Positions 1 to 18,572 of a DNA stretch of 64,000 nucleotides are shown one piece after another (positions within the stretch are counted from its first letter, which is position 1; the number at the start of each line of letters is the position of its first letter). Under the pieces are notes generated by a model. It worked only from the letters and a program-made list of their open reading frames with translations. It was not told the DNA's origin and ran no database searches. This stretch comes from Rhodothermales bacterium. GTDB lineage: Bacteria; Bacteroidota; Rhodothermia; Rhodothermales; VXPQ01. Position numbers and translations under genes: made by a program. The stretch lies in contig JAJDWX010000009.1 of the NCBI GenBank assembly GCA_022825385.1, positions 1 through 64,000 on the forward strand. Reading direction: 5' to 3'.

Positions 1-246
1 TGATTAAATCCGCGAAGCTCAGAGGCTGCGAGGGGTGCGCTGGCAAGGAATGACGAAGCAGCGTGGCAGGCCCCACGTAATGAGGAATGACACAGCCAGC
101 GTGCCCCTCGCAGCCTCCCGAAGGGCGCGTCACGTCCCCAAAGACACGAATCTACGGTGTTTTCTGCTGATTTCAACGATACAAGCATGGCGTTCTTGAC
201 TGGCGAACGTGACGCGCTGAGCGAAGTGGTTTTGATCAGAGTATCC
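1..246 (+). repeat. MITE-like repeat, copy 1 (5' end cut by window)
   Basis: This is a non-coding element that matches the reverse complement of positions 17379-17632 over its whole length, at roughly 85-90% identity by eye. Its right end is GATCAGAGTATCC (to 246). The left end starts inside the terminal inverted repeat (TGATTAAATCC at 1-11). Inside is a 23-bp imperfect stem, 22-44 pairing with 95-117 (GAGGCTGCGAGGGG...), enclosing a smaller hairpin (GTGG at 62-65 with CCAC at 73-76). There is no transposase and no convincing coding frame. It is consistent with a MITE mobilised in trans. I infer this from the terminal repeats and the second copy. Confidence 0.8.
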
Positions 247-16253: not shown

Positions 16254-17378
16254 ATGTCCAGTTCCATGCGCGTAGGCCTTCTCACCGGCGGCGGCGACTG
16301 TCCTGGCCTCAACGCCGTCATTCGGGGCGTCGCCAAATGCCTCATTTTGCACCACCGCGCCGAGGTGGTCGGCGTCGAGGATGGTTTTCTGGGGTTGATC
16401 GAGCGGCGCACCCGTCCGCTTCCCTACCGCGAGGTTAGCGGCATTCTTACGCTTGGCGGCACGATCCTTGGCTCCAGCAACATAGCCAATCCATTCAGCT
16501 ACTACAAACAGGACAATGCAGACGTCTCGGAACAGGTCTGCGAATATTGTCGCCTGATCGGACTTGACGCGCTGGTCGTCATCGGCGGGGACGGCACGAT
16601 GTCTATTGCGAATGGCCTGGCGAAGATGGGCATGAACATCATCGGCGTGCCCAAGACGATCGACAACGATCTGATGGGCACCGAGCGTACGTTTGGTTTC
16701 GACACCGCCGTTTCGATCGTTACGGAGGTGGTTGATCGCATTCATACGACCGCGCAGAGCCACGACCGGGTGATGATCATCGAGACGATGGGGCGCTATG
16801 CGGGGTGGATTGCCCTGTACGCCGGGCTGGCGGGCGGCGCCGACGTCATTCTTATTCCCGAAATCGAGTATACGGTGGAAGACGTGGCGTGGGTCTGCCG
16901 CCAACGGGAAGCCCGGGGGCAAAACTTTACGATTATCATGATCGCCGAGGGCGCCCGGACCCAGGGCGGCGATATGGTCGTCAAGCAGGTTGTCGAAAAC
17001 AGTCCGGACCCCGTGCGCCTTGGGGGCGTGGGCAAAGCGCTCGAACAGGCCCTGAGCGCGCAGATTGACAGCGAGGTGCGCACCACGATTCCCGGGCACA
17101 TGCAGCGGGGCGGCACCCCGACGGCGTTCGACCGCGATCTGGCGACCGCCTTCGGCGTATACGCCGGCGCCATGGTCGCCGAAGGACGGTTCGGACACAT
17201 GGTTGCATTGCAGAACAACCGGCTCGCAAGCGTTCCGTTCGAAGAGGTCGCCAACAAAACCCGCATGATCCCGCTGAATCATCCGATGATCGCTACGGCC
17301 CACGCCACCGGGGTTTCCTTTGGCTTGCGCGACTTCGATTGCCGCATCGAAAGTTCTCATATGGAAGGGATACTTTGA
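16254..17378 (+). CDS. pfkA: 6-phosphofructokinase, mixed ATP/PPi-type signature
   Basis: This 374-residue glycolytic enzyme phosphorylates fructose 6-phosphate. Motifs in order are GLLTGGGDCPGLNAV, GGTILGSS, VIGGDGTMSIANGL, PKTIDNDLMGTERTFGFDTAV and RYAGWIA. The residue equivalent to E. coli Gly104 is Gly (GGDGT), as in ATP enzymes. The position equivalent to E. coli Gly124 is Lys (PKTIDND), as in PPi enzymes, so the phosphoryl donor is uncertain. The stop codon is directly followed by the terminal repeat of the mobile element at 17379. Confidence 0.93.
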   Translation: MSSSMRVGLLTGGGDCPGLNAVIRGVAKCLILHHRAEVVGVEDGFLGLIERRTRPLPYREVSGILTLGGTILGSSNIANPFSYYKQDNADVSEQVCEYCRLIGLDALVVIGGDGTMSIANGLAKMGMNIIGVPKTIDNDLMGTERTFGFDTAVSIVTEVVDRIHTTAQSHDRVMIIETMGRYAGWIALYAGLAGGADVILIPEIEYTVEDVAWVCRQREARGQNFTIIMIAEGARTQGGDMVVKQVVENSPDPVRLGGVGKALEQALSAQIDSEVRTTIPGHMQRGGTPTAFDRDLATAFGVYAGAMVAEGRFGHMVALQNNRLASVPFEEVANKTRMIPLNHPMIATAHATGVSFGLRDFDCRIESSHMEGIL

Positions 17379-17632
17379 GGATACTCTGATTAAATCCACT
17401 TCGCTCAGCGCGTCCCGTTTGCCTGTACAAGTCGTCATGCTTGTATCGATGAAATCAGCAGAAAACACCGTAGATTCGGGTCTTAGGGGACGTGACGCGC
17501 CCTTCGGGAGGCTGCGAGGGGCACGCTGGCTGTGTCATTCCTCATTATGTGGGGCATGCCACATCGCTTCGTCATTCCTTGCCAGCGCACCCCTCGCAGC
17601 CTCTGAACTTCGCGGATTTAATCAGAGTATCC
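17379..17632 (-). repeat. MITE-like repeat, copy 2 (complete)
   Basis: This complete 254-bp element is bounded by a perfect 19-bp terminal inverted repeat, GGATACTCTGATTAAATCC at 17379-17397 and its complement at 17614-17632. Relative to copy 1 it is inverted. Internally, 17508-17530 and 17581-17603 form a 23-bp stem with two mismatched positions, enclosing a hairpin (ATGTGG/CCACAT at about 17547-17564) flanked by two GTCATTCCT direct repeats. It fills the space between the pfk stop (17376-17378) and the next start (17637) almost exactly. It encodes no transposase. Confidence 0.88.
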
Positions 17633-17636
17633 TTGA

Positions 17637-18572
17637 ATGAAGGTTTTTCTTACCGGAGGCACGGGGTTTGTCGGAAGCTACGTTCTTCGCGAATTGATCC
17701 GGCAGGGACATGCCGTGCGTTGCCTGGTGCGCGACAAGGCGCCGCCGCCCCGCGCGCTGTCGCCTCGCGTGGAGCAGGCGGTCGGCTCGGTAACCGACCC
17801 GGAAACGTTGCGCGGCTCTATGGACGGTTGCGACGCCGTGGTGCATCTCGTGGGCATTATTCGGGAAAATCCCGCCCGCGGCGTCACCTTCGACGCGCTG
17901 CATTTCGAGGGGACGAAAAACGTGGCGGACGAAGCCCGCAAGGCAGGCGTCCCGGGGTTTGCGCACATGAGCGCCAATGGCGCCCGCCCGGAGGGCGTAT
18001 CCGCGTACCAAACCTCGAAATGGCGGGCGGAAGAATATGTTCGGGGGGCGGGTTTCGCCCGCTGGACGATTTTCCGCCCTTCGCTCATTTTCGGGGATCC
18101 CGGCCCGGGCGGGTTCGAATTCGCTTCCGAGTTGGCCCGTACGCTGGTTCGTCCCTGGCCCGTTTTGCCCGTTTTCGGCGACGGGCGCTACGAAATGCAA
18201 CCCGTTTCCGTCGAGGAGGTCGCGGCGGCGTTCGCGCAGGCGCTTACGCTGGAGGCGGCGCAGGGCGCGACGTATTGCGTCGGGGGGCGGGAACGCCTGA
18301 CTTTTTCCGCCTTGCTGGACCGCATAACCGATGCGACAGGGCATGCCCGCAAGCCGAAAATCCCCCAACCGGTCCGGCTTGCGCGTCCGTTGGTGCGTTT
18401 TTTCGACGGAACGGGCCTGTTGCCTGTTTCCCTCGACCAGTTCGACATGCTTCTCGAAGGGAATACCTGCGACAACACGGCGTTCTATCGCGATTTCGAT
18501 GTGGTATTCAAGCCGTTTTCGCCCGAAAATTTGTCGTATCTGAACCGGCGCGGCAAGCCGGGGTCGGCATGA
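17637..18572 (+). CDS. NAD(P)-binding SDR (NDUFA9-like / atypical extended SDR)
   Basis: This 311-residue Rossmann protein has an N-terminal dinucleotide motif TGGTGFVGSYVL (residues 6-17) and the pattern of complex-I-NDUFA9-like atypical SDRs. No canonical YxxxK is obvious: SAYQTSKWRAEEYV offers a Y-x3-K-like stretch at about 121-125, and MSANGARP precedes it. The substrate is unknown; family members often act on quinone or lipid precursors or serve structurally. The start lies 4 bp after the MITE-like repeat, so its expression may depend on the element. It overlaps the next gene by ATGA. Confidence 0.82.
   Translation: MKVFLTGGTGFVGSYVLRELIRQGHAVRCLVRDKAPPPRALSPRVEQAVGSVTDPETLRGSMDGCDAVVHLVGIIRENPARGVTFDALHFEGTKNVADEARKAGVPGFAHMSANGARPEGVSAYQTSKWRAEEYVRGAGFARWTIFRPSLIFGDPGPGGFEFASELARTLVRPWPVLPVFGDGRYEMQPVSVEEVAAAFAQALTLEAAQGATYCVGGRERLTFSALLDRITDATGHARKPKIPQPVRLARPLVRFFDGTGLLPVSLDQFDMLLEGNTCDNTAFYRDFDVVFKPFSPENLSYLNRRGKPGSA

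Follow-up and report, generated by a model that had tools for sequence, protein, structure and literature searches.

A small IS5-type mobile element of the Rhodothermales with a maintained fold that suggests structured RNA or single-stranded DNA

The window under study, namely the whole 64,000-nucleotide stretch at the start of contig JAJDWX010000009.1 (Rhodothermales bacterium, assembly GCA_022825385.1), contains a 254-bp element. Its left end directly follows the stop codon of a phosphofructokinase gene, and on its right only a 4-bp duplication, TTGA, separates it from the ATG of an epimerase gene. The interval is exact, with the target duplications positioned outside of it. The features are as follows.

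16254-17378, plus strand: phosphofructokinase gene pfkA (PF00365)
17375-17378: left copy of the target site duplication, TTGA, overlapping the pfkA stop codon TGA
17379-17397, plus strand: left terminal inverted repeat (TIR), GGATACTCTGATTAAATCC, with an imperfect extension to 17408
17614-17632, plus strand: right TIR, GGATTTAATCAGAGTATCC
17633-17636: right copy of the target site duplication, TTGA
17637-18572, plus strand: gene for an NAD-dependent epimerase/NAD(P)H-binding protein
1-246, minus strand: second element copy, cut by the contig start

As stated in a preliminary description of this DNA, the TIRs are perfect over 19 bp; over 31 bp they are imperfect (84%). The chance expectation for the TIR pattern, with up to three mismatches allowed, is 0.02 occurrences in the window. 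The two copies present there, at 17379-17632 and 1-246, had been described as lying in the same orientation. This holds only after one of them is reverse complemented, and in the window itself their orientations are opposite. Neither a promoter nor a terminator was found at the 17379-17632 copy.

The family is present in all six sampled species of one genus, represented by Rhodothermales MAGs, with dozens to more than 100 copies. The source genome carries at least 41 near-full or partial copies among the BLAST matches listed, and 127 TIR end matches. The element also occurs in five further species of the genus, two of which have single-contig genomes with 219 and 277 end matches. Contigs of the source genome often end inside element copies, as at positions 1-246 of the window, and copy counts from draft genomes are therefore lower bounds. 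A further 34 genomes of the order gave no match to the TIR pattern. When 114 genomes of the order were scanned with a covariance model of the structured core (hairpin B, described below), it matched six, every one of them in this genus, and none of the 108 others. Full-length copies number 138, of which 134 are 252-258 bp long. A search of Rfam yielded no known RNA family, the match to MIR533 (E = 0.05) falling far under its cut-off, and no phage or plasmid sequence matching the element was found. Viral contigs bearing the TIR pattern are devoid of the structured core and were dismissed as unrelated.

The element is a non-autonomous MITE of the IS5 type, and the "MITE-like" label of the preliminary description is thus confirmed by its mobility, TIRs, target duplications, and empty orthologous sites. 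With a duplication width of exactly 4 bp, the flanks are 71% identical versus 49% when shuffled, and the consensus is TTAA. Only this width stands clearly above the shuffles, with an exact duplication observed in 43 of 132 copies. One genus member (G001) has an empty site at the window locus; the genes on either side share 91% identity, and the junction there is longer by 12 bp. In syntenic DNA of two other species, G002 and G004 (OX638295.1, a Rhodothermales MAG), 21 full-length G002 insertions could be classified: G004 cleanly lacks 14 of them and shares 5, and 2 fall into neither group. Some empty sites show a single, unduplicated target. The copies found opposite empty sites are mutually only 80-89% identical, and thus several diverged source lineages have moved.

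The affiliation with IS5 is provided by decayed IS5-family transposons in G004 that carry the MITE's own terminal repeats (L068, L061, and L065). In L068 both TIRs are present, 666 bp apart, and the transposase is internally deleted. The ends of the L068 and L061 relics read GGATACTCTGATTTAATCC / GGATTGATCAGAGTATCC; matches to PF01609 and PF05598 were found, the relic transposase domains being DDE_Tnp_1 and DUF772. Relatives of these relics in other MAGs show 59-69% protein identity. Related complete IS5-type elements carry GGAACCTCTGATTAAGTCC ends. GGAACCTCTGATTAAGTCCC ends, some of which directly adjoin TTAA, occur in related elements from other phyla. A search for a transposase with matching terminal repeats, as proposed in the preliminary description, thus led to decayed relics in a sister species and to no intact gene in any of the six genus genomes, although draft genomes may miss one; all of the strong relics are those of G004. 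The autonomous partner is accordingly lost, unsampled, or defunct. An intact partner in the same genome is not a strict requirement for a MITE. A second IS5-family element (L062, L064, and L066; ends TAGGGCCTGTTAACACTA) was considered as the mobilizer and rejected because its ends differ. At L062 1444-2300 in G002, an IS5-family element with TAGGGCGTGTTAACACTAA ends and a TA duplication is inserted in the right end of a MITE copy.

The interior of the element is non-coding, with three-base periodicity absent and ORF length not conserved. Coding on the minus strand, in an ORF starting from AAGGAATGACG, was likewise rejected, for the ORF ranges from 2 to 67 aa in length and shows no codon periodicity. 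Genome G003 contains two identical 63-bp copies and one 55-bp copy consisting of little beyond the ends, each at its own insertion site (L207, L212, and L213). They are among the smallest mobile units in these data. Given that such TIR-only derivatives have moved, the interior, and with it the fold, is unnecessary for transposition.

On the minus strand the fold comprises a helix closed by the element ends, hairpin A, and hairpin B. Its parts, in window coordinates, are given below.

17409-17418, minus strand: hairpin A arm, pairing with 17490-17499
17490-17499, minus strand: hairpin A partner arm
17508-17603, minus strand: hairpin B, the 96-nt structured core (covariance model R1)
17581-17603, minus strand: hairpin B outer stem, minus-strand 5' arm, pairing with 17508-17530
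17508-17530, minus strand: hairpin B outer stem, minus-strand 3' arm
17567-17578, minus strand: tandem G.A region, 5' side (GGAAUGACGAAG), in register with 17534-17545
17534-17545, minus strand: tandem G.A region, 3' side
17547-17564, minus strand: inner hairpin of 6 bp (17559-17564 with 17547-17552), the region of strongest covariation

The loop of hairpin A is variable, and in a 187-bp subfamily it is deleted with the stem retained (GCGCTTCACG..CGTGAAGCGC). The outer stem of hairpin B is the 23-bp internal stem of the preliminary description, and its arms are 91% complementary. What appears to be an internal loop in hairpin B reads, on the minus strand, G-C, G.A, A.G, A-U, U-A, G.A, A.G, C-G, G.A, A.G, A-U, G.A. 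The G.A series lies in exact register, and each position is retained in 129-138 of the 138 copies. On the plus strand the same positions would be C.U mismatches. The arrangement, three successive tandem G.A modules with Watson-Crick pairs between them, was not recognized as a known motif.

The pairing was first suspected from the two window copies. Read on the same strand, the inner hairpin is G-C-GTGG..CCAC-G-T in the 1-246 copy and A-T-GTGG..CCAC-A-T in the 17379 copy, and the changes beside GTGG/CCAC are C:G to T:A and G:T to A:T, exactly as claimed. Across the 138 full-length copies from the six species, there are 60 double compensatory changes from one Watson-Crick pair to another, distributed over 27 pairs that span up to 245 nt. 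Slid partners give 0-3 such changes, and random partners a mean of 2.3 and a maximum of 11. One inner-hairpin pair is TA in 110 copies, CG in 28, and mismatched in none. When all ∼31,000 column pairs are ranked, the top two are pairs of the structure. Under a tree-based null (home-made and R-scape-like, conservative, and heavy-tailed), only the pair 170:185 is individually significant (E = 0.03), with 34:118 at E = 0.7. Among 22 diverse hairpin B sequences, two-sided changes occur at 10 pairs, a number attained in at most 1 of 500 shuffles, with slid partners giving 0-3. Recombination between copies may have raised the number of double changes counted in the short inner hairpin, an explanation that does not extend so easily to the distant covarying pairs 34:118, 137:218, and 5:250. 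In addition, every class of change that leads out of Watson-Crick pairing accumulates more slowly in stems than in loops. The proposal that the paired changes reflect a maintained structure is therefore supported; over many copies and six species covariation neither disappears nor reduces to recent duplication.

The maintained fold belongs to the minus strand, invariant tandem G.A pairs included, which refines the earlier reading. Changes in stems from Watson-Crick pairs to A.C on the plus strand, which are G.U on the minus strand, amount to 149 events versus 66 to G.T on the plus strand (125 versus 62 when six majority-mispaired columns are excluded), whereas transitions in loops are nearly strand-symmetric. 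Relative to loops, G:C to A.C proceeds at 51% of the rate and G:C to G.T at 17%. The asymmetry is weaker when counted per pair (26:16, p = 0.16; Wilcoxon p = 0.06), and it is absent in hairpin A. Of 133 copies, 121 fold more stably on the minus strand than on the plus, and covariance model R1 scores hairpin B at 118.7 bits on the minus strand versus 44.8 on the plus. The assignment follows from the positions of the G.U wobbles, which fall on the minus strand, and, independently, from the G.A series, which forms only there. Two other causes of the A.C excess were rejected: selection against a plus-strand fold, because changes out of pairing are slower than those in loops rather than faster, and gene orientation, because the wobble asymmetry is equal in all four gene contexts.

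All of the insertions are intergenic, with predicted genes interrupted by none of the 138 copies. Genes were predicted with a purpose-built dicodon model, which recovered the genes already known near the window. Between codirectional neighbors the plus strand is sense in 63 cases and antisense in 21 (p = 5e-6); a further 29 sites are divergent and 9 convergent. There is no bias with respect to the direction of replication (23:18, p = 0.53). Since the minus strand is antisense to the neighboring genes at most codirectional sites, a read-through mRNA would carry the plus strand, which counts against a minus-strand RNA.

In 600 kb of unselected syntenic DNA, G002 and G004 have five full-length insertions in common, all of them 99.2-100% identical, with flanks at 91-96%; a first estimate, based on the top 40 matches, was biased by that choice. 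Examples of shared full-length pairs are L123/L186, L092/L131, and L171/L140. In the neighboring genes of these two species, third codon positions differ by 16.7% and second positions by 2.6%. In most cases, the conservation extends beyond the element by no more than a few bases to some tens. Truncated copies shared by the same species diverge by 0 to about 24%. Copies shared by other species pairs (G002/G005, G003/G004, and G000/G002) diverge by roughly 7-17%, about like their flanks. The strong conservation of the full-length copies may reflect selection or, alternatively, an exchange of element alleles by G002 and G004.

Taken together, these data suggest a small mobile element bearing a structured RNA or a structured single-stranded DNA. 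On balance we favor an IS5-type MITE bearing a selected, minus-strand structured RNA with a presumed cis-regulatory role. In such a scheme, an IS5-family transposase would mobilize the MITE in trans through its TIRs, leaving 4-bp TTAA-like duplications. Transcription of the minus strand would yield an RNA consisting of the TIR-closed helix, hairpin A, and hairpin B with its three tandem G.A modules and small capped hairpin. This RNA may influence how transcripts near the insertion are expressed or processed, as ERIC and Correia/NEMIS elements do, and insertions that are retained would join host regulation. Regulatory roles for the retained insertions would explain both why shared copies are so strongly conserved and why insertions are biased in orientation relative to genes. 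A broader proposal, offered only tentatively, is that a DDE transposon has dispersed a functional non-coding RNA across the genus as a MITE payload, its insertions becoming regulatory loci conserved above the neighboring protein genes.

Alternatively, the minus strand might be maintained in its folded form as single-stranded DNA, for instance in replication, repair, or a single-strand mobility step, with parallels in REPINs, IS200/IS605, and attC sites. DNA, too, forms strand-specific hairpins with G.T and G.A pairs, compensatory changes are reported for REPINs (PMC3116915), and long-term maintenance combined with mobility would suit a role in movement. We regard this as unlikely, given that the TIRs, the 4-bp duplication, and the relic transposase all belong to the DDE type, which acts on double-stranded DNA, that the TIR-only derivatives of 55-63 bp moved, and that the insertions are indifferent to replication direction. 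Of the two states allowed by the preliminary description, RNA or single-stranded DNA for transposition, the latter is accordingly weakened.

It is rather improbable that the element is an ordinary, functionless MITE in which covariation and conservation are products of shared ancestry, of repair templated by the hairpins, or of copies recombining with one another. Recombination could indeed spread what look like double changes in the short inner hairpin, the significance under the tree-based null is modest, and bacterial MITE transcripts are in general highly base-paired (PMC2229807). Correction of one arm by the other, however, would favor neither strand and would erase the G.A positions, which are 93-100% invariant in the 138 copies; moreover, 27 different pairs covary, some of them distant, and the slower change of stems extends to every class out of pairing. 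Finally, the nearly invariant plus-strand direct repeats GTCATTCCT at 17529-17542 and 17566-17579 could mark the core as a protein-binding site in double-stranded DNA, with the stems a by-product of palindromic ends, but this is very doubtful because complementarity runs in register past the repeats (hairpin positions 34-38 with 58-62) and the outer and inner stems covary independently.

Bacterial MITEs are usually viewed as decaying scraps of insertion sequences, their hairpins being by-products of the inverted repeats. Here, an interior fold is maintained by compensatory change and by near-invariant non-Watson-Crick pairs, on one strand and in at least six species, and yet it is dispensable for movement. 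The ability to jump is thereby separated from being kept folded, and the purpose of bacterial MITE folds becomes directly testable.

With the IS5 family (IS5 group), the element has in common TIRs of the type GGA(A/T)(A/C)CTCTGATTAA, 4-bp TTAA/YTAR-like duplications, and the DDE_Tnp_1 and DUF772 domains of its relic transposases. In its own sequence it shares only the TIRs, the 200-bp interior being structured, selected, and not IS-derived. ERIC and Correia (NEMIS) elements are similarly short, intergenic, and TIR-bounded, with tens to hundreds of copies and transcripts that fold (PMC2229807), and the effects of ERIC depend on orientation (PMC10969869). The element differs from them in its IS5-type ends and in a tandem G.A core on one strand only, and searches of Rfam and of phage and plasmid sequences detected no relation in sequence. 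REPINs are extragenic mobile hairpins in which length and pairing are conserved and compensatory changes are common (PMC3116915). They are associated with RAYT Y1-type transposases and with hairpins predicted in single-stranded DNA or mRNA, whereas the present element has TIRs. Mobilization of the REPIN type, by a RAYT Y1 enzyme and without a TIR-type target duplication, would not fit the 4-bp duplication and the DDE relics that are present. Structured bacterial MITEs such as ERIC and Correia (PMC2229807, PMC10969869), as well as REPINs (PMC3116915), are already known, and to these the element adds a variant rather than a new kind.
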